DNA of 64,000 nucleotides from Paratrimastix pyriformis (lineage: Eukaryota > Preaxostyla > Paratrimastigidae), in NCBI GenBank assembly GCA_027972325.1, contig JAPMOS010000051.1, forward strand, positions 186,001 through 250,000. Direction: 5' to 3'. The notes under the pieces are model-generated. The model worked only from the letters and a program-made list of their open reading frames with translations. It did not search any database and had not been told where the DNA came from. Shown here one piece after another: positions 1 to 64,000 of the stretch; within the stretch, counting starts at the first letter, position 1, and every line of letters starts with the position of its first letter. The position numbers and the translations under genes were made by a program.

Positions 1-3000
1 TCCCTGCCCAACGGCAGCCCGAGAGAAAGCCGACCGGATGGGCATGATGGTGGAAGGGCGGATGGTGCGTGGTGGTGGTTGTGGGATGGTGGTGGGTGGT
101 TGTAATGGTGGTGGTGGTGGCGGCGGCGGTGAGCGGACGGTCAAGGCTGTGATGTTGGCCTCCAACTGGCGGGCCGCCGCCTGGAACTGGTCGTACTGCA
201 GGCCCGCGGCCAGGGCAGCCTGCAGAGTGGCCGCCAGGTCGACGATGCGGCTCCGGTTGGCGGCCGCCTGGCGGGTGGCCTCGCCCTGGAGCCAGCTCAT
301 GGGCAGCATGGCCTGCAGGACCGGCTCCAAGGTGGCCCGGCTCCCCACAATGGCCGCCAGCGAGTCCAGCGTGGCGTTGGCCACCGAGCCGGCCGTCAGG
401 CATTCTGGCCGAGGGGGACGTGGGCCGATGGAGGGAAGATTGGTCAAGAGGCGAGCAAACAAGGCACAGGGGGGCATGAGTGAGGTCGTGAGAGTGGCTC
501 GTGGCTCTGGACAGGTGGCTCTGGTGCGGAGGGGCTGGGCTGGGCGAGGCGGCCTGCCGTGGTGCTTGCGGACCGTCGCGGCGGAGGAAGGTGCCAGCGA
601 TCATGTCGCGGGCCGCGTCCTGGATGATGCCCATCGCCTGAGTGGGGCTCACCCCCGCCACCCGGGCCCCCGCAGAGGCCAGGGCCTCGAGGCGGCCGCG
701 CACCGGGGCCAGGAAGATGGCCTCGATCTGGGTGGCGAAGGCCGTGGGGACCAGCTGCCGCAGGGCCGCCAAGGCGGCGGCCGGGTCGAGCAGCGTGGCG
801 CCCGCCTGCTGGAGGGCGTCCCCGGAGGGGGCCGTCCCCAGGGCCCGGGCGGCGGCCAGCTGGAGGGAGGCCGCCAGGGCGGCCCCGTCGGCCTGGATGG
901 AGCCGAAGAAGAGGCGCACCCGCGACTCGGAGACCATCCCGCCCAGGATGGCCTCCAGGGCCGAGGTGTAGACGGACAGCAGCCTCTCCCGTAGCCAGGC
1001 GGGGTACTGTGGGGGCGCGGCGGGGGAGGCGCGGGGTGAGCGCGATCGGACCGAATGCCGGTCGCTGAGCGGGGGGCACGAGGGGCTGGGGCAGCGGACC
1101 TGGGAGAGCGGGCCATGGGCCATCAGCTGGTTCATGACGCTGGTCCGGGCCGCCGCTGCGGCCGTGCGAACCGTCTGGGGGCTGCGGGCGGACTCGAGGG
1201 ACAGGTCGGCGTAGAGGCCCACCGTGGCCACGAGCCGCTTGGCCTCCCGGACGCGGGCGAGGGCGAGCACCGCCGCGGCGACCCGCTCCTGGAGCCGGGC
1301 CAGCCGGATGGGCAGGGCGGCCCCGACGTCGAGCGGCTGGCGGACCAGCGATCCCATGAAGAGCGGCACGGGCGCCCCGGCACTGCGCGGCATGCGAACC
1401 GTGGCGAAGAGGAGGAGGCGACCATGAGGGAGGGTGTCATCATCCAGCCATCCAATCATCACCCAGGGCGGGGGCGTGTGCGGGGGCGAGGGAGGGCGGA
1501 GGCGGCGGACTTGGCGGATTCGAAGGTGGCCACGAGGGCGTCGCGGATGGTGGCCGCGTTGTAGATCGCGTCCAAGGCGGCCAGGTCGGGCAGCAGGCTC
1601 GAGACGTTGGCGATGAAGCCCTCGTAGATCTGGTCGCAGGCGGCCGTGTAGTTCGCCACACGCACCTGCAGGAGGCGCAATCCACCGGCAGCAGTCCGCA
1701 CGAACGTGAGCGCGGGCCCGTCCAGTGTCCCCTCTTGGATTCCCGGGAGGCGGGTGGGCGGGCGGACCTCATTGAAGCGGGTGGTCAGCCAGGCGGCGGC
1801 CTGCTGTTCGAGCTGGTCGGTGGCCTGCCGGGCCAGCTGGGCCGCCTGCTGCTGGGCGTAGGACCCGAAGGCGGCCATGCGGCCCTCCATGCAGGCAGGC
1901 ACGGCCGCCCAGGCCTCCATCCGCAGGCCCACCCCGGGCAGGGGCAGGGCCTGGTCCATGCAGCCCGTCAGCAGCCCTAACTGCTTCTCGATGGCGGCCG
2001 GGGTGACCACCGACCGCCCCAGGGCCAGCAGGGCCGCGCCCAGGGCCGCGTCGTGGGTGGTGGCCGTCACGTTGGCCGCGGCGGCCTGCAGGGCGGCTTC
2101 GCCCGTGGCCGAGGCCTGGGCCGCTGGCGGGTGCCACAGGAGGAATCCGAGCAGGGGGTGAGCGACCACAAGGCGCCGGCGGGCGGGACGGACCGACGGT
2201 CTGGACGAGGGCGCGCACCCGCTGGGCGAGGATGCTGGCCAGGGTCTGGGTGCCCAGGGCCATGGCCCGGTTCTTCATCTCGGCCCCCAGTTGGGGCAGC
2301 TGGGCCGCCAGGACGGCCTGCAACTGGGCCGGGTTGCCCAGCGTCTCGATCAGCCGCCCCATGAAGCTGCCACGGACAAGGAGCGAGCCAGAACAGAAGT
2401 GAGCAGCAGGGGCATGGGAGGCAGGCGGGCGGACTCGTTGAGGCGGGTCAAGTTGAGCGCCTCCGAGAGGGCCGCCCCAAGGAGCGGGCCCCAGAAGGGC
2501 CCGAGGGCGGGCGCCTTGCCCAGGGCCACCGTCAGGTTGGTCAGGTAGGGCTGGATGGTCTGGCGGGCCCCACAGAAATGGGGGGCAGGGTGTGAGCAGA
2601 CTGCCGTGGGAGGGGCGACAGGACGGGGAGCCGAAGCGGGACGGACCGGCAGCTCGTCTGCCCAGAGGCGCCTGAGGGCGGCCTTCCCGGCGGTGGCGGC
2701 CTCGGCCCGGACCTGCTCCAGGACGGTGGCCATGGAGGCGGCGGGGTCGCGGAGGAAGGTCTCTGCCAGGCTGCCCAGCCGGGCCGCGAGAGCCGTGGGG
2801 GGGAACTCGACCGCCCCGATGAGGCCGTCCGCGGCCTGCTTGAGGGAGGCCTCGTTGGTCACGTATGGCCGGACGGCCGTCTCGAAGGCCTGCGTCGCCC
2901 AGGTCGGGAAGCCCCTGCGTGCCGGCAGCGATGCGCGGGGGCGGAGGTGGTGAGTGCTGAATCGATGCGCAACAAATCCCCCACCAGAACGTGAGTGCGC

Positions 3001-3314
3001 GTCGGAAGGCAATGAAACATCCGAGCCGCCGTCCCGTCCCGCCAACGCCACAGACTGGGCGGCCATGCGGGCCGAGGCGCGGGCGACGGCGTCGCGGCCC
3101 CGGGCGGTGGCGTTGCCGATGAGGTTGTAGGCCATGGGGCGCAGCAGGTCGTCCTGCAAGTATCCCGTCAGGTTCTTGCGGAGTAGGGTCTCCAGCCGGG
3201 CCCCCGCGTTCTGGGCCAGGGCCAGGCTCCCGTTGGCCAGCAGCCCCGGGACGGCCGCGAAGTCGAGGGCGAACAGGGCGTCCGAGACCGGGGTGATGAA
3301 TCCGAGCACGTCCT

Positions 3315-3348
<34 letters not shown>

Positions 3349-6300
3349 GGAGAAAGAGAGCCAGGTTTCCGGTGGTCAGCCGGCAGGTCCCTTTGGTGGG
3401 AGGCAGGTCAGCGGCAGGGGTGGGTTGGCAGGTCAGCGGCAGGGGCGGGTTGGCAGGTCAGCGGCAGGGGCGGGTTGGCAGGTCAGCGGCAGGGGCGGGT
3501 TGGCAGGTCAGCGGCAGGGGCGGGTTGGCAGGTCAGCGGCAGGGGCGGGCTGGCGGACCGCTTCGGTGACGAGCTCGCGGGCCGCCTGGACGAGGGCCTT
3601 CCGGGCGGTGGCCAGGATGGCGGCCGTGTCGACCCCGAGCAGGTCCGTGTTGCGGGCCCGGGCAGCCATCAGCTGCGCCTGGTTGGCCGGGTCCACGGCG
3701 GCCGTGAGCTGGTCCACCTACAGCCCCCAGCAGACACAAGGAGCGAATGCAATGAGCAGCCGAGGCGTCGAGCTCTGGGTCCCATGGAGAAGAAGCGAAC
3801 CCTGACCCGCAAGGAGCGAACGCTGAATGGTGGGCCCAGATGGGGATCATCTAGGGCCTCGCTCCGAAGCAGGGCTCCTTCCTCCGATCGATGGGAGCGG
3901 CAGCGGGGCGCGGACCAATGCATTGGTGGCTGCCTCGAGGCCGTTGATGGCCTGAGTGCGCAGGGACGTGACCACCGTGCGCAGCATCGCCTTCCCGATG
4001 GCCGCGGCGCGCTCGAGCAGACCCGGAATGGCCTGCATGCGTGTGCCCATGAGTGGATGGCACAGGGGTCGCCAGGTCAGTCCGAGAGGGCGAGGCATCA
4101 TCATCCCATCATCCAGGAATCATCATCCTCATCATCAACACCATCCAACGTCCCAGGCGGCGATTGGAGGGGCCGCAAAGCCATTCGGCGAGGTGGGCGG
4201 GTGGGCGGGTGGGCGGGGTGGCGGGTGGCCGTGGGGGATGGCGACCTTGTACTTGACCCAGTCCGAGGCCTGGTCGAGGAGGGACGCGTCCAGCCGGACG
4301 GCCCGCAGGAAGTCGAAGACAGTCGTCATCATGGCGTCCGGGTCGAACAGGGTCACATTCAAGGCCTGCCAGTCCGCCACCACCAGACCAGATCGCCATG
4401 ATGTGTGAAGAATGGGCCAGGGAGGGACGTCAAAGGGGACGGCTGGCAGGGGGCAGCAGGAGCGGACCCCAATCATGACGGCGGCGCCCTCTTGGGACCC
4501 GGTCAGGTCGACCAGGGCCGGCTTGAGGGCCGCCAGGGCCCCCTGGAGGGCCCCCTGGGCCTGCCCCACGGCCGCCTGGACCAGGGGGGTCAGGGCGGTC
4601 TGCACCCGGGCCGTGACGTTGGTCCGCAGGTATGCCTCCATGTCGGCACCCGTGTCGGTGGCCAGGGCAACCAGGGACGAGGTCACGGTGGCCCCGAAGT
4701 CCGACGTGTGCAGCAGCCGCTCGACCAGAGTCGAGAAGAAGTCCACCTGCGCACGGGGAGGGGGACAGGGGTGTGTGGATGATGATTGGATGATGTGGTT
4801 GATGTGGTTGATGACGATGACGACGATGACGACGACGCTGATGAGGATGATGAATGACGCTTGATGGTGAGGATGTGAGGATGAGAAGTGATCACGGACC
4901 AGCCGGGTGGGGTCGATGGCCGTGCGGAGGGCCCCGTCGGCCAGGTCGGCGGCCAGGTCGGATGTCGTCGCCTGACGGACGGCCGCCCGGGTCTGGACGA
5001 AGAGGCCCTCGAGCAGCGGGTCCACGTTGTCCAGCAGCCGCCGGGTGACGATGGTCGCCGCGGTGCGGCCCATGTCCAGCAGGCGGCCCATGTCCTGGCC
5101 GTGGGTGAAGGCCGCCACGAGCTTCTCGAAGAAGCTGCCCTGGCCGTCGAAGAGCTGCTTCAGGGAGGCCAGCAGCCCGTCCACCCGGGCGCTGAGGCCG
5201 GCCAGCGAGTAGGACGTCTGGGGGCCGGTCTGCTCGACGGGGATGACCCCGTTGGGGGCCGTGGGGCAGATCTCGTTGGCCGAGACCAGGCCCCATGCCC
5301 GCATGATGTCCTCGGCCGCGGCCGCGGCCTTGGGGCCCAGCGGGGAGCCCGTCATGGGGATGACGGCCTGCAGGACCTCGAGCACGGTGGGCCCGATCTT
5401 GGCCAGGAAGCCCAGCCGGCCCTGCACCTGGGCCGAGACCTGGGCCACGAGGTCCTTCTGGAGCAGGGTGGCCAGCAGCCAGTCCAGGCTGCCCTCCTGC
5501 AGCACCAGGGCCGGGCTGCGGGCCGGGTCGGGGTCCATCAGGCCGGCGAGCTGCAGGAAGGCCGTCGCCGAGGTGCGCAGGAGGGGCACCAGGTCCACCT
5601 GGACGCCCCCAAGCCGCAGCACCAGCGGCTCCACCAGGGCGCCAATGTCGGGCATCTGCGCCGCCACCGCCGCCCGAGTGAGGGCCAGCACGCACGGGCC
5701 CGGGGGGGAAGCACGGCAGAGGTGAGATGAGCAATGCGTCGGGTGCCGCGCCCACGATGGGCCGCCATGTCAGGCCCAAGTGGAGACGCTGAAGGCCGGC
5801 CGGTATGGGCATGGGAAAGGCAGGGCATGGGCATGGGCATGGGAAAGGCAGGGGCAGCGGACCGTCAGGCCGACCATGCCCGCCAGCCGGGTGACCAGCT
5901 CCCCGTGGCGGATCAGGGCCCGCACGATGGGTTCCACCGCCACCTGCTGGCCCTGCAGGGCCGCGTCCAGGGCCAGATATGAGGCCTGCGGGGGACGGGG
6001 GGAGAGGATGGTGAAGGGTGAAGGCAGGGCCAGGCCAGTGGGCAAAAACGGGACAGAGGGGTACGGGTACGGACGTAGAGGCCGTTGAGGAGGGTCTGCA
6101 CGTCCGTGATGCCTGGGGGGGGGGGGGGGGGAAGGGGAAGGATGGCATGAGGCCGACCGGTCGGCACAAGGCGCGGCAGGGACGGGGGGTCGGCATGGAG
6201 GTGGGTGGGTGGGGTGCGGACCGAGCCAGGAGCCGGTGGCAGCGCGGATGACCTGCTCGACCTCGGCCAGCGAGCTCAGGTCCAGCGTCCGCAGGGCCCC

Positions 6301-9300
6301 GCCCAGGGTCGAGTAGGGGCTCGGGGCGGCCCCCGTCGGGCCGCCGTATTCAACCTACGGGGATGTCGCGATCAGATGAGGCACTGTGGGAGCGGCGGGG
6401 GCTGCGGACCTGGGCGCGGGCGAGGATGGCCTCGAACCCGAAGGCGGGCAGCTCGTGGGCGATGGGGCCCTGGGCCGTCAGCCGGGCCGCCAGGTTGCCC
6501 AGCGCGTCGAAGGCGCCCACCGAGGTGTCCTGCAGCAGTTGCAGATACACCTGCCCAGCCACCCCACGGAAGGGCCAGGGCCCCCGACACACGCCAGACC
6601 ACAGACAGGTCAATCCACCGCCGTGCATGGGGATGGGGAAGGCATGCCTGGTACGCATGTCCCGTCGCCCGCCCCCCTCCCTCGGCGCACCATGCCGCCC
6701 GGGGCGGACCGAGTAGTTGGCCGAGGCGGCGAGGTAGCGGGCCAGCGGGTCGGCGATGACGTGCCGCACGGCGTCCTCGAAGAGCCCCCGCAGGTTGAGG
6801 CCCAGCGCCTCGCCGCTCTGCACGGCGCACTGGAGGATGGTGAGGGGAGGGGGGGAGGGCGGAGCGGGAACAAGCTGAGCACCGCGGAAAGGTGGGCGTG
6901 TGAGGCGGACCTGAAGGTCATCCGCGGAGTCGGTGAGCACCATGATGGGCCCCACCACGCTCGCCTGGATGACATCGCTGGCGGCCTTGTCGAGGGTGCT
7001 CCTGGCCAGCGCCTGGGCCGCCTGGGCGAACTGGGCCGGACCGGGGGCCGCCGTGGCCGCGGGCAGCGCGCGAGCCAGCAGCTGGGCCGGGCTCAGGGCC
7101 GCCAGGGAGGCCAGGGCGGCGTCCATGCCCCGGATGATGTCCCGCACGCAGGTGTCCATCCGGGCCGCGTCGACCTGGCCCCGGATCAGCGACTCCAGCG
7201 CGGCCTCCTGCAAGGTCCCAGCAAGCCCAGCGCCCCACAGACCCCGCCGGCGGTGAGCCCAACCGGTCGGCCACGCGAGGCGAGGGTGGCAGGGCAGCTG
7301 GCGGCGGCAAGGGGCTTGGCGACCTGGCCATCGGGCATGCCGCTGTCCAGGAGCAGCCCGCCCAGGGTGGCCAGGGCCTGGTTGAGCCGCTGCGGGACGG
7401 CGGCCCGGAGGGTCGGCAGGTCGGCGATCAGGGCCGGCTGCAGGGTCTGGCGCAGGGTCGTCCCCACCAGGGCCACCGCTCGGGGCCGCGCCGCCTCGAG
7501 GAGGGACTCGTACAGGGCGGCGCTCAGCGCAGGGACGCCCTGTCCCGGTGCCCGCAGAGATGATGATGATTGGATGATGCCTGTGCTGGTGCCTGTCCGG
7601 TGCTGGTGCTGATGCTGATGTTGTGGATGATATGGATGAGCGGGGATCTGGGGATGGCGGAAGGGTGGCGCGGCGGGCGGGGCAGACCTCGAACGACACG
7701 AACTGGGCCGTCAGATCGCTGAAGAATTTCTCGACGATGGACGGCCGGACGACCCCCATGCGCCCGGCGACCGAGTCGGCCAGTGGGGGCAGCGTCTCGG
7801 GGCTGCGGTCGGCCAGCACGGACATGGCCACGGGCAGGGTGGCCGCCAGGGGCCCCGCGTTGAGCAGGGCCGCCTGGAGGACGTCCCCCAGGCCATCGTC
7901 CAGCAGGGCGCGGGCCACCTCGGCCGTCACGACGCATGTCGAGGCGGTGGCGTTGAAGTACTCCGACTGCATGGGGCGGGGCGCGCGGTGGATGGTGAGA
8001 TGAGCCGAGGTCACGCGCGCCCATCTCATCCCCGTGCCATTCGCACATCACGACACCGACCTGGATGGTGGCGAGGTCGCCCAGGAAGCGCGCCTGGGCG
8101 GTGCTGTTGTACGGGGCCACGAAGCCGGCCACCAGGGCCCGGGAGAGGTTCAGTCGCTCCAGCAGCAGGGGCGCGAAGTGGGCCCGCACGGTGGCGATGG
8201 CGTCCGAGCTGAACCGGTCCGCCTCGGCGTAGAGGCACTCCGCCCCGCTGGTCAGGGCGGCCTGCAGGCGGGCCAGGGTGGCCGCCCAGTCGAAGGTGAA
8301 GGTCTCCGAGAGGCGCGGGGTGGTGGAGGACACCACGGCGCCCACCCCGGACAGGCAGCTGCCCAGCCGGGCGAACTCGGCGTCCAGAACGGCCGCCGTG
8401 AAGATGCTGCGCCCAGGGGAGATCGGGACACATGGCGGGGTGAACAGGACGCCGATGATGACGATGCGGATGCGGATGCGGATGACTGGATGATGATTGG
8501 GTGATGGGTGACTGGCTGATGATGGATGATGATGGCTGGATGGATGGCGGTGGATGGAGGGCATGGCATGGCGGGGGGCCGGGCAGACCTCTGCAAGGTT
8601 GCCGCGACCTCATCGCCCAGGGGGACGGAGGCGGTCAGGGCCACAACCCGGGCCCTGATGGCGGCCCCCATGCGGGCCGTGGTGTTGGCCAGGTCGCCCT
8701 TGATAGAGGCACCGATCGAGGCCAGCCCCGCCCGGAGCGTGGCCGAGAGGGACCCGTCCACGTAGGCAACCTGCCCCCCGCCAACACAGACACGGCGGTG
8801 AGTGGGAGGCGGCAAGGGGACCGAGTCGGGGGGTAGAGGGGAAGGGAGAGGGCAGGGCGGGACGGAGGGAGGGACGGACGATGCGCTGGCTGATCTGGTC
8901 CGCGGCCCGGTTGGCCATGGTCGTCAGGAAGCCGCCCAGGGCACCCAGGTCGCGCACCTGCTCGCACCGCCCCACAGTAAGGCACGAAGCAGAAAAGCAG
9001 GGGCGGGGTGAGCCGCCACTCGTCCGCAGGGACTCCGAGACCACTCAGTCACAGGGGGCGAACGCAACCGGCGTGCGGGGTCTTTGCGTTTTGGATGCTT
9101 CTTGCCTGCCATGACAAAGGCATTCCTCATAGCGCGCCAAGGGGCGTGCCTTCCACGGCTAGGGCCCTTGGTAAGCATGTGAACGTTGCTCTGTTTCAGG
9201 GCCGACCAGTGGTGCACTTTCCGGAAGTGGGTTGCCCCAAGCCCCCAGGTGCCCACTCAAGGCATATGGGACCCGCAGCGGAAGCCGTTGGCCGACCTGG

Positions 9301-12300
9301 ATGCCATCGGCGAGGCCGTCGAGGAGGGCCTGCACGCTGCCGTTGGCCGTGACCTGGCCCCAGGCGTCCTGCAGGGCCCCGACCAGCGAGTCCACCAGGG
9401 CGTCCGTGGGCACGTACTTGGCGGGGGCCGCCTGGGCCGCGAGGGCGTTGCTGGCCGAGGCAGGCAGGGGCATGCCGGCGAAGTCGAAGGCGCCCTCGAC
9501 CCAGGCGAGCATCCCCGCCCGGGCATCGGCCACCAGCTGGGCCACCATCGACCGCAGCGGGGCCGTCAGGGCCACCGGGTCGTAGGCGGCCCACACTTGG
9601 CGCAGGGCGGCCTTGAGGGTGCCCACCGTGGCCGACCCGACCCGGTCCAGGGCCACCGCCAGGCTGTCCTCGGCGGCCGCCTGGAAAGACCCGAAGTGGG
9701 GGCGGTGAGCACGATGATGGTCGGGAATTGGGGGCAGGGGACGGGCCTTGATCTGGGCCACCAGCTGGTCGATGGCCGTCTCGACGCCGCTGATCATCGT
9801 CTCCACGCTGAAGCCGTCCTCGCCCGGCAGGGGCAGGTCGAACCGGTCCAGGGCCCCGCTCACCAGGGCCATCAGCTGCCCGGCCGTGACCAGGCCCGGG
9901 GCCAGCACCTGCTCGGCCTGGCCCACCATGTCAGCCGCGAACTGGGACCCTGTGGGCAGCGCGGCAGGGGGGAGAAGAACAGGAGGGAGGGTGAGCGGTG
10001 CGTGAGAAGATGAGGGTGATCTTGGCGGACCGGCGGCGGCGGCCTGGCGGAGGGGCTGCAGGGCCGAGTCGGCGGCCAGGGCGAGGCTCGCGTCCAGCTG
10101 GCCGGCCAGCTGGGTGCCCTTGGCCTCCAGCCGGGTGCGGGCCGAGGCCAGCAGGTCCTTCCGGACGGTCGCCAGCAGGCGGGTCTTGAGGCCGCACCCG
10201 TAGCGGGCAAGGCCGTCCATCAAGGTGTCCCAGAGCGAGTCCCCGCCAAGGGTCAGGCTCTCCAGGGCATCCAGGAACACCTGTCGGGCCAGTTGAGACA
10301 GGAGTGAAGAGCTGTGGGTGCCGTTCTCTTCCACTGTGGACCACCGTGGCACGAGCGGCGGGCGGCCGGACCTGGGTGAGCTCCTCGGGGACGATGAGCG
10401 TGCCCAGGGCCGCCTGGTAGAAGCCCAGCACGGTCTCGTCGTCGACCACCTGGCCCAGGGCCCGAGCGGACTGCAGGCTGAACGTGGTGACCAGCCCCTG
10501 GGCCTGCGAGGACACCCGGTAGATGACCGGGTACAGGGCCCCGCGCGCCGTGGCCGTCACGTTGGACACCAGGGTGTCCGTCACATTGGCCACCGTGGCC
10601 GCGACCTTGTGCGGTGGATGGGGGCGGGGCAAAACAGGACAGGGCGAGGGTCAGAACGAGGGCGGCACGGGTGGCGCTGGAAGGAAACGGGAGGCCTGGA
10701 CAGCTGGCGGACCCTGGCGGCCAGGATCCTGTATGCCCGGGTGGCCTGGTCGAGGATGGGCGTGCGCAGGTCGAGCGAGTCGGCCAGGGCCCCGAAGAAC
10801 CCGCTGACCAGAGTCGCCGGGTCGCCGATGGCCCCTCGCAGGACGCCCTCGGCCCAGGGGGCCAGGTCGGCCCCCGCCGCCCCGCCCACGGCCAGCATCC
10901 CGTCCAGGGCGCCCGTCAGCAGGGACTCGTACTGGCTGGCGGCCGCCTGGCCGAGGACCTCGCCGATCCGGACGAGCCCCGTCCGGGTGAAGTTCAGCAG
11001 CCACCGCTCGGCCGCCGCCTTGACAAGCGGAACCTGGCGGCCACCACCACCCCCAAGGGACGAGCGAGGCGATTGCATGAAGGGCACGGTCCAACACCGG
11101 AAACGGTACGGGGGACGAGGCAGGGGCGCCAGGGGCGGCGGGGGGACGGACCTTCTCCGAGACGAAGTTCTGCAGGCGGGGCGTGACCTGGGTGGCCACC
11201 AGGCCGCCGATGCCGTCGAAGAGCCCGCCGACGGAGGCCCCCATGAGCTTATCCTCGACCCAGCCGACGGTGCCGTTGACCAGGCCCTCGAGGAAGGCCC
11301 CAAGGGCCGTCGGGCTCAGGACCTCACGCAGGGCGTCCTCCACGGCCACGGTCAGCTCGCGGCTCTCGGCGCCCAGCAGCCCCATGAGAGCCGACCGGGA
11401 GCTGGCCACCAGGGCCTCGACCGAGGCGTTGCTGAGGGCCACCAGCCGGTCGATCCGGTTGAAGGCCGCCTCGCGGGCCATCCGGGTGGTGTTCCGGACC
11501 AGGGCCACCTTGAGCTGGGTCAGGTAGGCCGAGCCCTCCTGCACGAAGACCCGCACCCGCTGCTCCAGCGAGGCCAGCATGCTCGGGCCGCTCTGCGAAG
11601 AGGGATGGTGGCGGTGGTGCCCGGGGTCAGAGGGGATCGAGCGGGGCGGCGGGGCGGCGGGGCGGACGGACCGTGTTGAAGAGCATGTCCAGGCTGAAGC
11701 CGGCCACGAAGTCGTCAAACATGGCCTCGATGGCGCTCGGCTGCAGCATGCCGCGCATGACCCCGGCAACCCCACCCGCAATCTCTTCCATTCCTGTGGT
11801 GGTGGGAGCAGGGTGGAAAAGACGGATGAGAAAAAGTTCGCAACCTCCAGGGATTGAACCTGGGCGGGACAAGTCCCACCGCCTTAGCAGGGCGGCGCCT
11901 TAACCACTCGGCCAAAGTTGCTTAATGCTTCCTATAGAAAGGGGCGTGCACAGACCACCGGTGAGGTTAAAGAGCTGGTCGTGGGCCACCTCGGCGAGGG
12001 CGTCCAGCTTGTCGGCGGCCCCGTCGAGCAAGGTGGCGATGGCGGTGCGCATGCTGTCCTTCATGAGGGCCGTCAGGTTGGTCCGGAGGAAGGTCAGCAC
12101 GTCCGCCTGTGGGGCACCAAAGGAGGCGACCATGAGAGGCTGTGAGGGGAGGGGAGGGGAGGGGAGGCGGGACCTGGGCATCGGCGACGAATGTCTGGCC
12201 CTGGGCCAGGAAGATGGCCAGGATGTCGGACGGGTTGGCGATGAACGCGTCCATGACGCCCTCCAGGAAGGCTCGCACCCGGGGCGGATCCACCTGTCCC

Positions 12301-20894: not shown

Positions 20895-20927
<33 letters not shown>

Positions 20928-31900: not shown

Positions 31901-32004
31901 ATGATGATTGGGTGCTGATGATTGAATGGTGATGCTGATTGGATGATGATGATTGGATGATGATGATGATTGGATGATGATGATGATTGGATGATGATGA
32001 TGAT

Positions 32005-35268: not shown

Positions 35269-35360
35269 TTCTCACCACGCGGCCCGTGGGAGTCGATTGA
35301 ACCAACAGATCCCTGTGGAGCTTGACACCAGTCGCTATTTCGGTGTCGAATACGGGCGTG
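35269..35360. promoter_or_regulatory. 92-bp bidirectional promoter region between genes F and B
   Basis: The start codons of F (minus) and B (plus) are only 92 bp apart and diverge. Both encode signal peptides in their first exon, which supports the two starts. No TATA box is evident. Either the 5' untranslated regions are very short or they overlap the opposite gene. Confidence 0.7.
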
Positions 35361-41765: not shown

Positions 41766-41812
<47 letters not shown>

Positions 41813-41816
41813 ACAG

Positions 41817-41903
<87 letters not shown>

Positions 41904-42708
41904 ATCATCATCATCGCCATCACCCAATCGTCACCGTCACCGTCACCTCGTTCTCTCCCCACAGGCTGGCTGCAGCAGCAGATCAAGCCCATCACGGACC
42001 GGGTCTTCAACATGTCCAGCGGCCTGCGCACCGTGAAGAAGGTTCTGGACGTGGTGGGGATGGTCCAGGACGTGGTGGCCCAGGTGGACATGGACGGGCT
42101 GCCCGCCGTGACGGACGCCAGCCAGCTGCAGCTGGACGGGCTCATCGCCGGCTACACCGAGGACGCCTTCCAGATGTCCCGCGACGCCATCGCCACCGTG
42201 CGCCTCCGGGCCGCCAACCTCAGCGAGGCCCCGATGGGAAAGTCCGTGCCGCGCCCACCCCATGGACCACCCGCCACCCCAACACCGCCCCCGCCAAGCT
42301 CATTCATCGGGTGGAATCCCCCCGTCCCGTCCACCCTCATCCTCATCCCTCGGATGGAATCCGTCATCCCGGCAGCCTGACGGCCTTCTCGACCCAGATG
42401 TCCCTCGCGGCAGCCCTGAAGGTGGCCGTCCTGGCCAACCCGCTGGCCGTCTGCCAGGCCCAGTACGCACCCCTGCTGCTCTACGGCAACGAGAGCGGGG
42501 CCGTCCTGCTGGACGCCATCGGCCAGGTGCAGGCCTTCCTGGCCGGCATGGACGCCCTCCTGACCCAGCTCGAGCCCTCCCTCGACAAGGTCCCCGTCCC
42601 ACCCAGCCTTCCCTGGCCGATTCGTCTGCCGTTCGCTGATGCTGGTGATGATGGTTGGGTGATGCTGGCGATAGTTGACGATGAGGATGGGATGATGGTT
42701 TAGTCCCC

Positions 42709-42739
<31 letters not shown>

Positions 42740-54665: not shown

Positions 54666-54698
<33 letters not shown>

Positions 54699-57600
54699 AG
54701 AGGCGGTGCGGCCCTACCTGACCAACGACCAGCAGCTGGAGGACATGGCCAACGCCCTGCTGGACTCCTTCCAGCTGCCTTCCCTGGGGCTCTTCATGGC
54801 CACCAACGCCGACCCCATCGACGGGCTCCTCAGCCGTCTGCAGGTCCGCCCAACCTCCCGTCCATTCGCCCATTCTGAACATGATCCAAAAATCGATTCT
54901 CGCATTTCGTCTCACCCATTCACCAACCACCATCACTCCTGGCTCCACAGAACATTGGCCTGACTGCTCTTCGCGACCCTCTGGCGGCCGTTCGAGCCCT
55001 GGGGGCCGAGGCCAAGACGACCCTGCTGCCCCTGGCCCAGACGGCCCTCCGCAACCTGTGGTCGTCCCAGGTCGGCTGTCGCCGCTGCCACACGCCGAGG
55101 GAGAGCATGCAGGCATCCACGGTGACCCCCACCCCACCCATCCAGGCCGTGAGAAGTGCCATCATGCGCGTGTGGATCAGGTGGGCGGGAGTTGGATGGA
55201 GGGGGGAGATCACGAAACCCAAATGCTCTTTCAAAGCTCATCCCTTTCTGCCCCATCCTCTCCCTCTACCCCATCCTCTACCCCATCCTCTACCCCATCC
55301 TCTGCCCCATCCTCTGCCCCATCCTCTGCCCCATCCTCTGCCCCATCCACCCAGCGGCCGGCCCTCCAGCGTCGGGTCAACACCTTCGCCCAGAACGTGA
55401 GCCGGTCGGCGGCGCTGGGGCCGTTCATGGGGCCGGTGGTGGGGTCGGCCATGAGCGCTGCCCTGGACCTGTCCCAGCTGGACGGGTTCGTGGGGGCCCT
55501 GGTGGACACCCTCGACACCCCCGACCAGCTGGCCGCCGCCATCACGGTCCGTACCCCCGGCAATGAGGGTCCCCTTCATGAGGCTCATCATCCTCTCGCC
55601 TCTCTTCTCTACCGGCTCAGGCCCAGCTGCCCGCCCTGGGGGAGCGCCTGAAGGCTCGGGCCCTGGCCTACGCGACGGGCACCCTGGCCACGCTGCTCGA
55701 GCCCCGGCTGGCCCCGCTGGGCGCCCTGGCCGCGGCCAACACGACCGCGGCCTCCCAGGCCGCCCTGGCCGAGATGAGCGGGTGGCTCGTCTCGCGGACG
55801 GGCGACGCCACTTTGGCCGCCTCGATGCGTGCTGTGGTGGAGCCCCTGCTCGTCCCCGCCCGGACGCAGGCCTTGCTGGCCAACCTGACGGCCTGCTACC
55901 GGGCGGCCCTGCCCGTGGCCGGCTCGTCCCTGCAGCCGGACGCCTGGCAGGCCATCCTGCCCTGCATGGAAGGCCGCCTGACCGCCTTCGCGGCCGAGGC
56001 CCAGGCCGGCACCCAGGCGGCCGCCGAGGCGCACTACGCGCTGCTCAAGACCCAGACCCAGGACTGGCTGGGCCCCCAGTACGCCCAGGCCCGCTCGGCA
56101 GCCACGGACCTGTTTGCCCAGGCCGAGGCAGGCCTGCGGACCGACGTTGCGGCCCTGGTGGACCCCGCCATGAGCGGCGCCGAGGTGGCGGCCCTGGTGA
56201 CCCGGGTCGGAGAGGCCGCCCAGGCCGTGCTGAGCAACGCCAGCAGTGCCGAGGCCCCGCTGCCCCTCTTTGTGGCGGGACTGCTCGATGACCCGCGCGT
56301 CCTGGCGCAAGTGCTGCCCGCCCGGCTGGAGTCCCTCTACGCCCGCGTGGCCAGCGCGTCCCTGCACACCCTGCGGACCGCCGCTGCGGGCCGGGCCCTG
56401 GAAGACCTGGCCACCATCGAGGCGGACGCCCTGGCGGCGCTGGATGACCTCGACGGGCGCGATGCGGCCATCGCCCAGGCCCGCGCTGACCTGGCGGCAG
56501 CCCTGGTGGCCCTCTCCCCAGACACGGCCGTCCGGGACGAGGCCGCCCTGGCCCAGACCGTGCTGGCCCCGGCCCTGGACGGATTCGAGGCCCTGATGGA
56601 CGACGCCCTCTCGGCCGACCAGGTGCGGCTCTTCTTCGGCGGCCTGCGGGATGACGCCCGCTTGGCGGAGACCGTCCTGGCCGGGGCCCGCGACCGGTCC
56701 CTGGGCCTGGTCACCCCGCCCGACGCCCTGGCCGAGGCGGGCCTGCCCGATCTTGAGCCTGCCCAGGCCGCGGCGGCCCTGGCGGGGCTGGTCGGGTCGG
56801 CCTACGCGGCCGTCGAATCGCGCTTCGTCGGGCCCATGGCAGCCGACCTGACCCGCATCGGGCAGCAGGCCGCCCAGGCCCTGGGCGCCGACACGGTCGA
56901 CGTGGCCCGGGTATTGCGGGCCAACTGCACGGCCCTGATCGCGTCGTACTACCTGCGCCAGGCCCAGGGCCAGGCCCTGGCCGACCAGCTGGCGGCCAAC
57001 CTGACCGCCTACGCGGTCTTGGTCAACGCCGAGGTGGCGCCCTTCCAGCAGATGGTGCGCATCCACGCCCGGGCCGACTGGCTGCAGGGCGCCGGGCTGG
57101 CGGGCATCCAGGGCATCATGGCCCACTGGGCCGCCCTGGGCGACCTCGTTCCCCGCACCTTGGGGACGGCCGTCCGCTACGACGAGTACCGCGGCCTGGT
57201 GGCCAGCCTGCAGGCCAACGTCACCGCGGCCACCGAGCTCATCGCGGCCCTGTTCGGGGGCAACCTGGACGGGTTCCTGGGCTCGGGCACGGCCGCCCAG
57301 TCGGGCCTGCTGCGGGCCCTCATTGGGACCGACAACCTGGTCGAGCTGGCCGTGACGCGGCTCTCGGGGGCGGCCCTCGACCTGGGCGCCTACGTGTGGC
57401 CCATGCTGCGCGAGGTGCTGGGTGTGGACGAGCTGCTCGCCCAGGCACGCTCCGTCTGGGAGGCATTCAAGGTCCGTCCCCCGCCCTTCGAATATCACCC
57501 CACACTCCATCCTCTGTTTGGTTGCCTGTCTCCCGCCCCTGCAGGCACACGCCCTGTCGGTCTTCCCCGGCGGGACCAGCGGCACCAACCCGGTCACGAG

Positions 57601-60573
57601 CGTCCTGGGCCAGCTGGTCAGCGTGGACACGGTCCTGGCGCCCATCCGCAACCTGACCAAGATCCTCGGCCCCATCCAGGTCCGCCCGCAAAGACTCCTG
57701 GGATGCTCACCTCATTCTTGTTCCCCGTGCCCCCTGCCAGACGATTGTGACGAACATGCTGACGAGCGGCGTCCAGACGGCCCTGGCGGGCGGCGGCACG
57801 GCGGGCTTCGACCTGCGGGCCATGGCCGACCAGATGATCGGCACCCTGCGCCAGGCGCTGGGCATCGACCGGTGGGAGCGGCGCTTCGACGACCTGCGGC
57901 TCCTCTTCACCGACATCGCCGCCTTCGCCACCCCGGCCCGCCTGCAGGGCCTCATCGGGGACGCGGTCGCCCTCGCCGACGCGGCCGGCACCTCGCCCGA
58001 GACCCAGCGCATGCTCACCCGGGGCCTCGAGCTGGCCGCCTACTTCGCCACCCACGCCCGCGAGATGGTCCGCCTCCCGGCCCGGCCCGCTCGCACCGCA
58101 TCCCATCCCATCCCGCCATGGGGTCTCATCATCATCGTCGTGCTGTCCTTTGCGTCCCTTGCATAGGTCGACGTCAAGTACTGGCAGAAACTGGCCTCGG
58201 ATGCCCTGTCCAAGTTCACCGGCCTGATGGACACCGTCTCCAGCGGCGGTTTCGCGGACCTGGTGCAGTCGCTGCTGCAGAGCGACATCGTCCGCATGGC
58301 CGCAAGCAAGGTCTCGGGCAACCTGACCAAGTACCTCGGTCTGCCGCGCCTCCCCCTCCTGCCTTCTTGTGCTCTGTGTGTCGCTGCCTGCCGCGTCCCC
58401 TTCCCGCCTCATCCCGCTGCGGCCGCTCCTGGTGCCTGTGTGCAGACATGGGGCTGTACTTTGTGGAGCTGTGGAAGAACCTGACCCGGGCCGACGAGAT
58501 CGACAGCCAGTCGGCGGCATACGACAAGACGGCCGGCGGGCTGACCTCGATCGGGGCCCAGGTGCAGAACCTGCTCCGCTCGCTGACCGACCCGGAGACC
58601 ATGAAGAAGGTGACCAACTCGCTGATGACCAACTTCCCCGTGGCCGACTTCATGCCCTACGTCCAGAAGGTCCCTCCTCGCCGTCCTTCGTCTCATCCCC
58701 GCCCATGCCCAGCTGCGGCCTTCAACCACAATTTACATGCCCCTTCTTCTCGCGGTGGTTCGGTGGCTGCAGGTGCTGAACAACATGACGGCCAACAGCG
58801 ACCTGGTCAAGATCGGCCAGAACTTCTTCAGCAACGTCAGCAAGTACCTGAACATCTCGGGCGACTTCATGGCCATGGTCGACAAGGGCGTCACCCCGGC
58901 CGCGGTCAAGAAGCTCTTCGTCACTTGGGCCAAGACCATGGCCACCAGCCCCGAGGTCCTGGCCACCGTCGAGAAGTACCTCACCCAGGGCAACCACACG
59001 GTCTGCCCGTGCCGCCTGTTCCCCTTGAGCCCGCTTCACCTGTCCCGCCCTGCCTGGTGGTCCCCCCCCTCCTCCGCAGAAACTGGCCGGGATGATCTCC
59101 AAGTACCGCCAGTCCTTCGTCAAGAACGTGGGCAACATGACCGACCTCGTCCGCTCGCCTTCCCATCCCGGGGACCTGGATGATGGACGACCAGTGCAAG
59201 ACGCGTGCTCACGCAACCGTCTCCCTCCTCTCCCCCCCCAGAATCAGGTCAACAAGACGGCCACCCAGCAGGTCAAGCAGGTCGCCACGGCCGTGGCCAA
59301 GGCCGCTTTCAAGGCCCTGGACGAGATCCTCTTCCGGTCGACCGACCTCAAGTCGTACCTGGTCCGCCCCCTGCCCGCTTTGCCCTGGCGCGCCTCCTCA
59401 TACCCCCGTCTGCACCTCCCCGTCTGCACCTCCCGCCCGCTGCAGAACACCAAGCTTGACCTGGTGGGCCTGGTCGACGGCCTGATCGCCAACCAGACGA
59501 CCCTGCTGATGGGCTACGCGGAGCAGCTCACCCGGAACCTGTCCCGGGTGGCCCTGGGCCCCATCCAGAACTCGTCCATCGTGGGGGTCATCAAGCAGGT
59601 CGTCGGGGCCATGGACGCCGTGCTGCCCGAGGTGGTCAACATCACTGGTCCGTCACCCCCGGCCTCCCACTGGGCTGGCGGCGGCCGATTCGCATTCGCA
59701 TTGGATCTTCCGCCGAGGCAAGGCAGTCAGCACAGGCAGACTGACAGACAGACAGCACTGACTAACAGGCAGTCGGCGCAGGCAGACGGACACGGGGGGA
59801 CAACAGAGAGAGATCCGCGGATGATGGGCGGAAAAGGGTCGGAATCGGGTTGTCTGGTTTCAGGGCATCCCCTTCAGCATCCTCATGTCCCGCTGCCCCC
59901 TTTCCAATGAATGGCTGCCCAGACACGGCCAGCCGGATGATGAGCGCCGTGCCGAGCGACTTCCCGGCGAAGGACTCGATGGCCAGCTTCCTGGGCAAGG
60001 TGAAGGAGATCGTGGGGACGGTGGTCGAGTGGCGCAAGAAGATGGGCAACGTCAACAACAAGACCAGCGACTTCATCGACTTCAGGTCCGCCACCCCCTC
60101 GCACCCCGCGCCACCACCGCCACCACCACCTGTCTCGCCATTCATACCCTTCGCGATCACCCAGTCTCATCATCATCTCAGCAGCGGCATCATGCGACCT
60201 TCATCGGCATCATTCATGTCGCGACCGTCATCACCTTCGTCATCATCATCCACTCGAATCGCCTCATCGCCCCTCTTTCTTCCGTCCTCTCGTGCCGCCG
60301 CAGCCTGCTGCTGGTGCCGCTGAACCGGACCATCCAGGACCTGATCCGCAACTCGCTGGGCGGGGTGCTGACCCAGCCCCTGAAGGACTTCCAGAACATG
60401 ATCGTCACCTTCGTGGCCGAGGACATGCATCTCGAGGACCTCCGCACCTGGGTCGTCCGTACGCCCCCCGCCCCGCACATCGCCCTCCATCTCTGCTCTC
60501 CTCCGACTCCGGGTGCATGTCGCCTGCACTGATCGAGGACCTCCGCACATGGATAGAGGCCAGGCCGCTCATG

Positions 60574-60613
<40 letters not shown>

Positions 60614-63600
60614 GGATGCTGTTGTTGTTTTTGGAAGGATGGTGCTGGTGGTAATCCCCCCCCCCCCCCCCCCCATCGTGGCGACCTCACCGACATTCTG
60701 GGCATCCCACCCACCCACCCACCCACCCCCCCCCCCCCCACAGCTGGAGATGAAGAACAAGGCCATCGAGTTCGTCAACTCGGGCCTGGAGAAGCTCACC
60801 TCGATGGTCACCGACGCCGTGGTGCCGCCCGTCCAGGCCGCCTCGAACGCCATCAAGGATGCCATCGCGTCTGCCCCTGCCCCCATGCCCCATGCCCCCA
60901 TGCCCCCATGCCCCCATGCCCCCCTGCCCCCCTGCCCCTCTGCCCTTTTCCATCGCATGGCATATGGTGGAGTGATCGGATGAGATTTGGATGAGGGGGA
61001 AGGAGAATGGGCTGATGGATGAACCGCTCGGCGGCATTCGCTCGCATCCACTGGGGGCTCGGGCAGGACGGCCATGTCGCCCTTCAAGGAGATGCTGGGC
61101 TTCCTGAAGTCCATCCTGGGCATGGCCGGGGCCAACGAGTACCTCGAGGACGGCACCAACCGCATCTACCACCTGCGGGTCGCCTTCGGCCGGTCGGACA
61201 TCGCCCGCCTGCGGGCCCTCATGGCCACCGTCCGGGCCGAGCTGGCCCCCTTCCAGAAACTCTACGCGCCCAAGGTCCGCCACGTCGGCACAGCCGGGTT
61301 TCGCCGCCGCCCCATCGGCTCCCACCAATGAGCGGAGAAATGCGGTGTCTTGGCATGATCAGCGGCGGACTTGAAGATTTGCATGACCGAGAAGCTGGTG
61401 TTCCTTCCGTCCTTCCGCCATCCCATCCGCCTTCCCCCAATGGCGGACGACCTCCTCACACTGCCCGATTGCCCTCGCTCGCGCCCAGGTCCCGGGGTAC
61501 CTCTCGAGCCTGCCGGCCGTCTCGCTGGAGCTGCAGCACCAGTGCGGCACCCTGACGACCCTGCTCGCCGCGGGCGTGGTGACCAACGGGACGGGCACCT
61601 CCAGCACCGGCACCCTCGCGGCCGGGGCCTCCCGGTCGCCTTCCATCGGGACGGCCTTCGCCAGCCGCCTGCGGGCGGCCACCAGCAGCCTGCTCGATCT
61701 GATGGTCCCTCTGGACGAGGCCGCGGCGCCCGTCCGCGGGCCCAACGCGACCCTGCTCTGGACCATGGCCAGCCACTTCGACACCCAGGTCGAGGGCCGC
61801 CTGCTGGTGCCCCTCACGGACGGCCTGCAGAACGTCGACGTGTACCGGCGCAACTTCACCGAGGTCATGCGGCCCGCCCTCGAAGGTCCATCTCCTGGCC
61901 CCTGCTGCCCTCCTCGTCCCCCTCCAGACCTCCCCGTCCATCATCATCATCCAATCATCATCATCATCCAATCATCATCATCATCCAATCATCATCATCA
62001 TCCAATCATCATCATCCAACCGCCTCCCAGCCTTCGTCACGGGCCTGAAGAGCCTGGGGCCCTTGAACACCATCCTGGACGTGCTGGCGGACCCGCTGAG
62101 CGCCCTGGACGGGATTAAGCCCCTGCACGACTTCATCGTGGACAAGTTCCGCTACATTCACATCGCCGTCGACCAGGTCAGTAGCTCGCCACCCTCTCGC
62201 CACCTTCCTTCACCTGGCTGTCCCTTTCTTTCAGATCAAGACGGTCTTCGACAAGGTGAAGGAATACGGGCACATCGAACAGGTCAAGCAGGTCGTGGCC
62301 GTCGTCAACGGTGTCATCGGCGCCTCCGACGTGGCCCGCAAGCAGCTCCCCGACATGGTGGCGGTCTGGCCCTGCTGCCTCTGCCCCTCTGCCCCTTTGC
62401 GCTATGCCCCCCTGCCGGCCGGTTATCCTCGGGGCATCGCCTGGCCCGACCGGCATCCTCCGGACTGACATCCCGTCCCGCCCCTCGCAACACAGGCCTT
62501 CCTGAAGGGAACCGGCCTGGCCGACCTGCTGAAGCCCATCAAGGGGTACCTGCAAACCTTCAGGTCCGGGCGTGGTCGCTGCCTCCTCTCCTGCCATTTC
62601 TCATCACCTGCATCTCGTTGTTGATTGCTGTTTGCTGTTTGCTGTTTGCTGTTTGCTGTTGCTGTTCCGCAGCGGGGTCATCAAGGGCCCCGTGAACAGC
62701 TTCCTGGAGATCGTGCAGATGATCATCGGCAAGATCAGGCAGGTCTTCAGCTGGCTCGACTTCGGCCTGGAGAAGCCCGCCCTGGCGGCCCCCGCGACCA
62801 TCCCCCAGTGCAGCGCCGACCTGTGCATGCACACCCTGCCCCGGTCGATCGACTTGTACAAGGACTACCTCTTCATGATCAAGGTCCGCACCGCATCGCT
62901 TCGTGTGTCCTCAGTGAAAACATCCTGCTGGATTTGCGAGGGCCTCCCTGGCCAGTGCAGAAGGATTCACGATTCACCTGTGGCCTCTGCTCCCCTCCCG
63001 CCCCGCCCGGCAGTACCTGCACTTTGCTGACCTGGCCTACGGCAGCATGGACTGGTACGGCATCGATGGGTTCACCTCCGTCCCGCGCGCCCTCACCCTG
63101 CCCGGCCTCTGGGACGGGTCCGCGGCCCTTCTCATCTGCCCACCTCGACCCGGCTGCCCACTTGAACCCCGCACTCATTTGAACCCCTCACTCAACTTTG
63201 TTCGGGTCGGTGGTGGCGTGGTGGGTGGTGGGTGGTGGCGTGAGCAGCCATGTGCCGCAAGGGGTGGGCACCATGAAGATCAACAACAAGGACGAGTGGA
63301 TCGTGCAGTACTACCAGGGCGGCCGGCGGCTGTCCACGCCGCACCCCTCCATCCTGGCCTTCATGGGGCCCAAGGACGGGGCCCTCAAGAAGCTCATCAG
63401 CCTGTACGACCCCGAGGGGCGCCCCTTCGCCAACGCCCACGGCATGCTGGTCGTCAAGGACTTCGTCTACGTCATGAACGGGACGGGCCACATGTGCCAG
63501 TACAACACCTCCATCATCCGGACCCTCCGGATGGCCGGCGGTCCCCCGTCAGCCGCCACGGCCGGGGCCATGTACCGCCTGGACGTCTCGCCGGGCGGCC

Positions 63601-64000
63601 CGCTGGCCTTCCAGGACGACGAGAAGGAGCCCATGCTCTGGGCGGCCGACTCCCACGAGGCCGGCCACGCCGACGTGCCCACCCACCACGGCACCTCGGT
63701 CCGGTCGACCCTGGGCTGGATGGTCGGCTACCCGCTCGGCCCCTCGGGCGAGATGACGGCCACGGCCACCTACCAGGTGGGCACCGCCACCGTGCTTGCC
63801 CCATCGAAGGCCCGTCTCCCCCCCAACACCACCGCCCAACCACCCCCGCCCCCCGCCGCCCCCGTCGCCTCACGTTGCCCTCCCTCCGTGCGCACGGACA
63901 GGTACACTACGTGGGACCCGACGTGCGGGGCATCAGCTTCGTCAAGCAGCTGGGCTTCGAGTACGTGGTCCTGACGCGGTGCTTCAACAGGCCCGGCCGA
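35361..64000 (+). CDS. Gene B: giant large-lipid-transfer-protein-like secreted protein (5' part, runs off right edge)
   Basis: ATG 35,361 opens a signal peptide ([18 protein letters not shown], probable cleavage after 'GRAFS'). The window holds 74 exons and about 6,133 codons with no frame break, so it is already longer than human apoB-100. Residues 1-~1,340 are the lipid-transfer-like module. Residues ~1,340-5,880 are a helical array rich in N-glycosylation sites. The last ~250 residues in the window look like a beta-propeller. It aligns with gene A over all of A's visible length and reads the opposite way. Shared blocks include '[11 protein letters not shown]' and 'GTLNGL'-type helices, 'LNAGPLAA' and 'DLAADLxDGALRTA'. 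The lipid-binding role is inferred from the N-terminal family pattern. Confidence 0.85.
37165..37262 (+). repeat. CTC/TCC trinucleotide tract
   Basis: A pyrimidine-rich imperfect (CTC)n in intron 37,158-37,348 of gene B, following the donor GTCCGC. Confidence 0.85.
39051..39155 (+). repeat. (CCACG)21 pentanucleotide repeat
   Basis: About 21 perfect copies in intron 39,028-39,278 of gene B. Open frames through it are artefacts of a stop-free unit. Confidence 0.95.
40203..40292 (+). repeat. GATATGATCTGGATGATGACTG satellite
   Basis: About three 22-bp units after a GAT tract in intron 40,149-40,346 of gene B. Confidence 0.8.
41273..41480 (+). other. GC-AG intron in gene B (intron 14) with 33-bp repeats
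   Basis: The 5' junction is AAG|GCCCGTCCC and the acceptor is GGTGCAG. The aligned A intron starts GTCCGC. Positions 41,358-41,475 hold imperfect ~33-bp repeats built on CTCCCCGTTTGGCTGACTGG. Confidence 0.78.
41745..41902 (+). repeat. (CAT)n tract with ATCCAATC interruptions
   Basis: In intron 41,668-41,964 of gene B. Long poly-His and poly-Ser readings come only from this repeat. Same satellite family as in genes A and F. Confidence 0.92.
45977..46012 (+). repeat. 36-nt shared intronic element, copy in gene B
   Basis: Lies in intron 45,913-46,080 and is followed by (CA)n. It matches the reverse complement of 20,861-20,896 at 35 of 36 bases. Flanks outside the element and the CA tract differ. 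Confidence 0.85.
48989..49147 (+). other. GC-AG intron in gene B (intron 36)
   Basis: The junction AAG|GCCCGTCGG and acceptor GACGACAG give phase 0 and join '...AFDQATAK' to 'ALAGLVSSL'. The intron also stays open in frame for its whole length, so retention would not introduce a stop. Confidence 0.7.
53203..53264 (+). repeat. (CTGCCT)n hexamer repeat
   Basis: About ten copies in intron 53,187-53,339 of gene B. Confidence 0.92.
53518..53628 (+). repeat. ~28-bp minisatellite (CCATGACCATCCACCCAACG core)
   Basis: About four imperfect copies in intron 53,441-53,669 of gene B. Confidence 0.85.
54607..54700 (+). repeat. (CTC)n then (CTG)n next to an acceptor
   Basis: In intron 54,549-54,700 of gene B. 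The CTG run ends directly in the acceptor CTGCAG, so repeat length sets the distance between branch region and acceptor. CTG runs can fold and expand. Confidence 0.9.
55246..55351 (+). repeat. 12-bp minisatellite CCCCATCCTCTG
   Basis: About eight to nine units in intron 55,071-55,354 of gene B, forming the pyrimidine tract before CACCCAG. Confidence 0.9.
60569..60740 (+). repeat. Three long C runs in one intron
   Basis: Intron 60,455-60,743 of gene B has C homopolymers near 60,576-60,608, 60,656-60,673 and 60,726-60,739. Run lengths may be inexact. Confidence 0.85.
61937..62012 (+). repeat. ATCATCATCATCCA satellite
   Basis: In intron 61,886-62,030 of gene B; the same family as 31,087-31,246 and 41,745-41,902. 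Confidence 0.9.
62621..62663 (+). repeat. (TGCTGTT)n heptamer repeat
   Basis: About five units before the acceptor TTCCGCAG of intron 62,564-62,672 in gene B. Confidence 0.88.
62673..64000 (+). other. Probable beta-propeller-like region at the right end of gene B
   Basis: From exon 71 the composition shifts from Ala/Leu helices to Gly, Tyr, Trp and His with short strands. Examples are '[20 protein letters not shown]' with 'YVMNGTG' (near 63,395-63,490), '[12 protein letters not shown]' and '[19 protein letters not shown]' (63,633-63,745), and '[17 protein letters not shown]' at the edge. Repeated 'GxxFV...YVVL' strands suggest propeller blades. The domain is cut by the window end, so the family is unresolved. 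Confidence 0.4.
63810..63901 (+). other. GC-AG intron in gene B (intron 73)
   Basis: The junction AAG|GCCCGTCTC and acceptor GCACGGACAG join 'TVLAPSK' to '[10 protein letters not shown]' in phase 0. Confidence 0.75.

Follow-up and report, generated by a model that had tools for sequence, protein, structure and literature searches.

Few features of eukaryotes are as constant as the pairing of the U1 small nuclear RNA (snRNA) sequence ACUUACC with the intron donor, and in the major (U2-type) spliceosome U1 reads AUACUUACC and donors follow GTRAGT. For Paratrimastix pyriformis (Metamonada, Preaxostyla), the nearest relative with donors in print among the literature consulted is the oxymonad Streblomastix strix, in which +3A, +4U and +5G were reported and U1 pairing was taken as conserved (PMC1501061). 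Here we analysed a stretch of 64,000 nt from P. pyriformis (positions 186001-250000 of contig JAPMOS010000051.1, hereafter the window) together with conserved genes and snRNA genes elsewhere in the assembly, and found that the introns of this organism mostly begin with GTC and not with the usual GTA or GTG, and that all U1 genes found carry an altered 5' end.

Compared with the major spliceosome, P. pyriformis retains GT-AG introns, the U1 cloverleaf, GTAGTA in U2 and ACAGAGA in U6, but nucleotides (nt) 5-6 of its U1 are AG instead of UU, and its donors have C at +3 and a pyrimidine at +4. The GUAUGU donors of yeast and oxymonads resemble its donors in allowing +4U and in carrying +5G, whereas +3 is A there and C in Paratrimastix. 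A moving +4 preference is also known from Saccharomycotina, where donors switch between A and U at +4 while U1 ACUUACC is invariant wherever found (227/230, and 9/10 outgroups), and where adenosine at U1 position 5 has been named as a possible compensation (PMC10581693); in Paratrimastix, by contrast, U1 has A at nt 5 and G at nt 6. Odd donors occur in Giardia, whose U1 keeps the canonical letters (ACUUAC, PMC3510501), and in Fritillaria, whose two U1 versions have identical 5' ends and which is reported to have evolved no divergent U1 for these donors (PMC13326754). The diplonemid S. specki has an alternative U1 whose 5' end is a C-stretch with comparable complementarity to the canonical donor logo (PMC12621601), but it is one altered copy beside a conserved U1, whereas in Paratrimastix every copy found is altered, as are the donors. 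A natural change in a donor-reading snRNA is likewise seen in Cyanidioschyzon merolae, in reverse: there the U6 box has an A to U exchange and the U1 small nuclear ribonucleoprotein is lost (PMC10581693, PMC6679479), while in Paratrimastix U6 is unchanged and U1 altered.

The assembly searched comprises 56.06 Mb in 495 contigs; the genome paper reports 633 scaffolds, 56.6 Mb, 60.9% GC and a BUSCO completeness of 76.3%, the annotation having been made with Augustus after re-training on curated models and on intron hints from RNA-seq (PMC10703272). The consulted passages of that paper contain nothing on splice sites, and the word 'snRNA' is absent from its main text. Among the listed titles and abstract openings of the open-licence literature there was no earlier report of a GTC donor code or an altered U1 in P. 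pyriformis; further related work concerns intron convergence (PMC2483917) and the Monocercomonoides genome (PMC8767320).

Introns of the window

Introns were placed on the minus strand of positions 1-35400 and the plus strand of 34001-64000 using a self-trained Viterbi gene model that took its codon usage from CCT3 and required only a GT start and an AG end; GT-AG ends in the window are an assumption of the model. In the first unbiased pass, begun with a flat donor, C stood at +3 in 96 of 133 introns, and the commonest donor words were GTCCGC (29) and GTCCGT (18), against a background of C after 43-44% of all GTs on the gene strands (binomial P = 1.7e-11 for the excess). The converged model comprised three genes and 166 introns, with the donors GTC (155, including 104 GTCCG and 19 GTCTG), GTG (6), GTT (4) and GTA (1), and C at +4 in 124. 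The GTRAGT consensus was not followed, GTAAGT and GTGAGT being absent and GTCAGT occurring twice. An earlier note on the window, made from its letters alone, had parsed 159 introns (150 GTC, 104 GTCCG, 5 GTT, 2 GTCAGT) and had described +3 as almost always C, GTAAGT and GTGAGT as absent and the exon side as often AAG or CAG; the re-derived set came close to these numbers, with exons most often ending CAG (29) or AAG (16), and ACG in a further 16. The gene models and representative introns are as follows (a slash marks the exon-intron border).

22952..35099, minus strand: gene 1 model, self-trained from a flat donor, 28 introns, 2470 amino acids, +3C in 26/28; ends uncertain, the 5' part overlapping the start of gene 3
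141..22590, minus strand: gene 2 model, 62 introns, 4436 amino acids, +3C in 58/62; 3' end near the window edge and uncertain
34144..63974, plus strand: gene 3 model, 76 introns, 6050 amino acids, +3C in 71/76; both ends uncertain
33199..33326, minus strand: example intron, donor gtg/GTCCGCCC, acceptor CATAG
33808..34114, minus strand: example intron, donor cca/GTCCGTCG, acceptor CTCAG
12294..12347, minus strand: example intron, donor gtg/GTCCGTGC, acceptor GACAG
11794..11955, minus strand: intron with donor gtg/GTCTGTGC, which is complementary to U1 at +1 to +6; contains a tRNA-Ser gene
33501..33586, minus strand: rare GTT intron, donor aag/GTTCGTGC

As controls, the model settled on no donor word in three passes over the antisense strands, and the decoy donors GA, CT, TC and AC scored 6425-6700 compared to 7198 for GT. 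Genes 2 and 3 are paralogues, with 42.7% identity across 4364 aligned residues, and 13 of 62 intron positions, phase included, were common to the two, compared to a mean of 0.66 and a maximum of 4 in 500 draws of randomly placed introns; at 12 of these 13 positions both copies had +3C. When GC was also allowed as a start, it began 17 of 170 introns (score 7314); GC-AG introns may be common in the window, the count itself being unsettled (4 in the earlier parse). Some of the 166 junctions may be wrong, above all the 11 non-GTC ones and the gene ends.

Donor positions were tested against local intron composition in the 161 window introns of at least 45 nt, leaving out the 5 of 166 that were shorter. 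At +3, C was enriched 1.73-fold and T reduced to 0.12-fold, and the preference for C over T went beyond composition (P = 1e-12). At +4, the C:T ratio of 120:25 was close to that of nearby intron sequence (1596:455, P = 0.18) and purines were avoided (P = 1e-8); C:T at this position equalled local intron composition in Prp8 and CCT3 too. G was 4.4-fold enriched at +5 and T 1.9-fold at +6, with T favoured over C (P = 5e-4). Because C at +4 matches base composition and only purines are avoided, the code is not GTCCG but GTCYGY, and selection for +4C, considered at first, was dropped after this comparison. The donor GTCCG(C/T) proposed in the earlier note is thus right in being a rewritten donor and goes too far in including C at +4, where a pyrimidine suffices.

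No U12-type donor (RTATCCTTT) occurred among the 166; the one GTA donor was GTACGA, AT donors lying outside the model. No clear branch-point motif was found in the window introns, CTRAY being present near the 3' end of 30/166.

Donors in conserved genes outside the window

For Prp8, contig C456 was aligned to a plant Prp8 protein (P0137, 81% identity) with a 0.01-point tie-break as the only motif rule. Thirteen of the 18 gaps were exact GT..AG introns (12 GTC, 1 GTT), three had a GTC donor at a distance of 1, 2 and 9 nt, and two gaps of 21 nt were not introns; the later Prp8 donor set held 15 introns (14 GTC), an intron at the end of the stretch being left out. CCT3 (contig C1), spliced by hand, contained 9 introns (8 GTC, 1 GTT), and its product matched the deposited P. 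pyriformis protein P0001 at every one of 564 residues. Together the two genes had +3C in 22/24 introns and +3T in 2/24. Seven CCT paralogues were aligned to CCT3 proteins with a +3-neutral procedure, which was noisy (92 gaps, 68 with GT); a filter for GT..YAG and less than 500 nt kept 36 introns and dropped 56 rows. Among the 36, +3 was C in 22, T in 9, A in 3 and G in 2, +4 was T in 21, C in 13 and G in 2, and +5 was G in 31, with no GTAAGT or GTGAGT; the excess of T over C at +4 was not significant against a rounded composition (P = 0.15). The commonest words in these less GC-rich genes were GTCTG and GTCCG with some GTTTG, and GTCCG in the window. Over 190 donors, the exon side had C84 and A53 at -3, A76 and C66 at -2 and G151 at -1. 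With the U6 ACAGAGA and U2 GTAGTA described below, the GT and AG ends outside the window identify these as U2-type introns.

Two further procedures were set aside: self-training on nine other loci with both strands at once over-predicted (735 introns in the last pass, +3C in 350), and the codon-usage model, run with and without window donor weights on eight loci, returned incomplete proteins that were not counted. One Prp8 intron was misplaced by the model with window donor weights and placed correctly without them.

U1 snRNA genes

Eight U1 genes on eight contigs gave full-length matches to RF00003 (model positions 1-166, E = 3.7e-13 to 2.0e-10). As the earlier note had anticipated, their 5' end is changed: it reads AUACAGACCUUG in 8/8, where the family consensus is AUACUUACCUG. 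The ends of all eight are ATACAGACCTTG; none carries the canonical AUACUUACC, and AUACAGACC is present in 8/8. This altered 5' end is the novelty itself, as a sequence signature and not as a function. The form predicted in the earlier note, GCGGACCUU, was correct for G at nt 6 (against +3C) and for the exon-side CUU (against AAG), but nt 5 and nt 3, which face +4 and +6, are A and not the expected G.

Nucleotides 1-58 were identical in 8/8 genes, while stretches 200-400 nt away were unrelated (26-27% identity, ungapped). A CCCATAA element lies 59-60 nt upstream of each U1 gene and 58-60 nt upstream of the 7 U2 genes inspected (of 9 full-length). The U1, U2 and U6 genes read (19 of loci L001-L020) have this upstream CCCATAA in common, which is probably an snRNA promoter element of the Paratrimastix lineage, and the eight U1 genes are presumably in use.

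No canonical or other full-length variant U1 was found in the assembly by RF00003, promoter-pattern or U1-body searches. The pattern CCCATAA followed by ATACNNACCT had 9 matches, of which 8 were the U1 genes and none read ATACTTACCT. When only U1 nt 10-156 served as DNA query, so that the 5' end played no part, the same 8 genes and a 32-nt stretch came back. The latter, a perfect copy of the U1 3' end at G000:C234:346835-346866, is probably a fragment. The ninth match of the promoter pattern, locus L063 (ATACGGACCT), was considered as a second U1 with a perfect match to GTCCG and was dropped, having no Rfam U1 match at E<=1 and reading like the reverse complement of a donor. Outside the genome, the 5' 19-mer of U1 was absent from viral contigs and present in one Desulfosporosinus contig, which we judged to be chance.

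Pairing of U1 with the donors

Pairing strength was calculated as mean duplex energy (kcal/mol) over 166 window, 15 Prp8 and 9 CCT3 donors. The real U1 end reached -6.8, -8.3 and -9.2, respectively, compared to -3.7, -4.4 and -4.3 for the canonical end, i.e., about twice the mean energy, while on 600 random GTs the two ends gave -4.5 and -3.1. When all 16 possible nt 5-6 were ranked by energy, the real AG came 3rd, 2nd and 2nd in the three sets and UU 15th, 16th and 13th. The U1 5' end is also complementary to host donors by pair count: on average 5.7 to 6.5 of 9 positions formed Watson-Crick pairs with the real end and 4.8 to 5.3 with the canonical one, and random GTs formed 3.8 with the real end.

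U6, U2 and spliceosomal proteins

U6 is canonical (...GAUACAGAGAAG...) with ACAGAGA intact in 4/4 copies found, contrary to the earlier suggestion that U6 might be changed too, and the U2 branch-site sequence is GTAGTA in 7/7 genes read. By direct reading, the heptamer AUACAGA is common to U1 nt 1-7 and the U6 box. In canonical spliceosomes U6 ACAGA pairs with donor positions +2 to +6; in that register the Paratrimastix U6 would form a mean of 3.2 (window), 3.7 (Prp8) and 4.1 (CCT3) Watson-Crick pairs of 5, compared to 3 for GUAAGU.

Genes for a METTL16-family protein (an exon with NPPF, which also matches a bacterial RlmF model far below the cut-off) and for SNRNP27K, with a methionine that we take to correspond to human M141, are present (L070/L071), as are two LUC7 loci. 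The sole zf-U1 match (L069 1477-2041) belongs to a protein with an additional WW-like stretch, which scores below the Pfam cut-off; this protein is presumably WBP4-like. The partial Prp8 model was 79-81% identical to the best 120 matches listed, mostly plants, and no P. pyriformis protein was named among these. On the earlier note's statement that standard gene finders would fail on this genome, the evidence points both ways: the deposited CCT3 protein agrees with our splicing, Augustus having been re-trained with RNA-seq hints, but the Prp8 listing and the lack of a database match for the gene 2 protein (see below) suggest that the annotation may lack some genes or have them broken.

A donor code probably rewritten together with U1

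We consider it very probable that the donor code of P. pyriformis was rewritten together with its U1 snRNA, a reading drawn from sequence. The donor would be GTCYGY after an exon most often ending CAG or AAG, and in U1, whose first letters are AUACAGACCUU, uridines 5 and 6 would have been exchanged for A and G. As drawn, U1 5'-AUACAGACCUU-3' would pair with 5'-AAG/GUCUGUAU-3', such that C9, U10 and U11 pair with the exon end AAG, C8 and A7 with GU, G6 with +3C, A5 with +4U (C being tolerated and purines not), C4 with +5G and A3 with +6U. The prevalence of +3C would thus follow from G at nt 6, the +3T minority may reflect G-U pairing with the same nucleotide, and +4U together with purine avoidance would follow from A at nt 5, with +4C a tolerated mismatch.

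U6 keeps AUACAGAGA, and its ACAGA is the complement of UCUGU at +2 to +6, the word that U1 would now prefer; U1 (AUACAGA) and the U6 box would both favour the donor GUCUGU. Elsewhere U1 (+3A, +4A) and U6 (+3C, +4U) would pull the donor apart, and since the two RNAs here would share one preferred word, the hand-over of the donor from U1 to U6 would need no compromise between two complements. Whether the donor is now read by U1 through the very word that U6 uses, the change in U1 having settled the conflict, we regard as an even question. To our knowledge, the pseudouridine sites at U1 nt 5-6 are near-universal, and the loss of both would be the cost of such a change; in human and yeast these nucleotides are pseudouridines (PMC3510501). 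An intron-rich organism in which donors and U1 genes have probably moved together would indicate that a splice code can be rewritten, would provide natural evidence by covariation for U1-donor pairing, and would make the U1-to-U6 hand-over testable through the U1/U6 match. If true, this naturally rewritten splice code would be a direct test of why donors usually compromise; it is also a warning that donor models from other eukaryotes will misread the Paratrimastix lineage.

Several observations weigh against this interpretation. The U1 genes score 50.8-60.2 bits, below the Rfam gathering cut-off of 69.5, so that what supports their naming is the E-value, the fold over the full length, the promoter element and the complementarity; in an RNAfold structure of the naked RNA, the U1 5' end is base-paired to the Sm region. 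The real end is not the best conceivable one: of the 16 combinations at nt 5-6, GG has the most favourable energy in each donor set, and better energies are obtained with the genome-absent AUACGGACCUU (-10.9, -12.2 and -9.8 for window, Prp8 and CCT3) and with the predicted GCGGACCUU (-12.8, -13.4 and -10.6), no U1 with GG or of the latter form having been found, while in number of Watson-Crick pairs the real end leads the four tested in CCT3 only (6.4/9). The +4C donors (124/166 in the window) place an A-C mismatch against both U1 nt 5 and the U6 box, and +3C is not absolute, as the 9 T, 3 A and 2 G among the 36 CCT-paralogue introns show. METTL16-family and SNRNP27K genes are kept although +4A is rare, contrary to the association reported from yeasts. 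U1-C was not found in the zf-U1 search, the sole match being discounted because it has a WW-like stretch, as WBP4 does; an intron inside the finger could hide U1-C. Finally, when all 16 dinucleotides were allowed in the window (score 7190), CG began 111 of 178 introns, with CGTCCC the commonest word; this returns the word one base before GTC, and the exact window junctions accordingly lean on the GT-AG assumption.

Alternative explanations

Donors could instead be chosen mainly by proteins (Prp8, LUC7, SNRNP27K, U1-bound factors), with the U1 change neutral or secondary. Tolerance of +4C against U1 A5 and the unfound U1-C agree with this, as does the near absence of U1-associated proteins reported from other metamonads (PMC6679479), but the U1 change falls exactly at the nucleotide facing +3 and supplies the Watson-Crick partner of the recoded base, the altered end is common to all 8 copies found, and the preference for +6T in the window is the one expected from U1 A3; we therefore consider protein-led choice improbable.

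Equally slim, in our judgement, are the chances that A5 of U1 is deaminated to inosine, or that the assembly lacks a variant gene with G5, either of which would let the working U1 pair completely with GUCCG. Pairing would become much stronger with G at nt 5, +4C is found in most window donors, and the gene content of the assembly may be incomplete (BUSCO 76.3%, PMC10703272). Against this, +4 C:T follows local intron composition in the window as in Prp8 and CCT3, T exceeds C in the seven CCT genes (21:13, not significant), and A5 is encoded in 8/8 genes with no other full-length copy found.

That GTCCG is a composition effect of a GC-rich window with misplaced junctions is the least credible explanation and is refuted in the main by the Prp8 introns, the U1 genes and CCT3 splicing: the window is indeed about 70% GC, +4C equals composition and the model slides one base when any dinucleotide is allowed, but +3C is more frequent in the donors than among all GTs of these strands and is absent as a donor word from antisense strands, conserved genes whose introns were located independently by homology agree at +3 (Prp8 and CCT3, and more loosely the CCT paralogues), and the U1 genes carry its complement.

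Other features of the window

Genes 2 and 3 encode very long paralogous proteins in opposite orientation, with the third gene alongside. A protein database search with the gene 2 model gave no match, and none of ten long window exons reached the Pfam cut-off, one having a sub-threshold match to DUF826. On the minus strand, the gene 2 intron 3313-3558 contains a long G-run (on the plus strand) and a tandem repeat of about 25 nt, and a tRNA-Ser(GCT) gene (11839-11921, minus strand) lies within the gene 2 intron 11955-11794 on the same strand.

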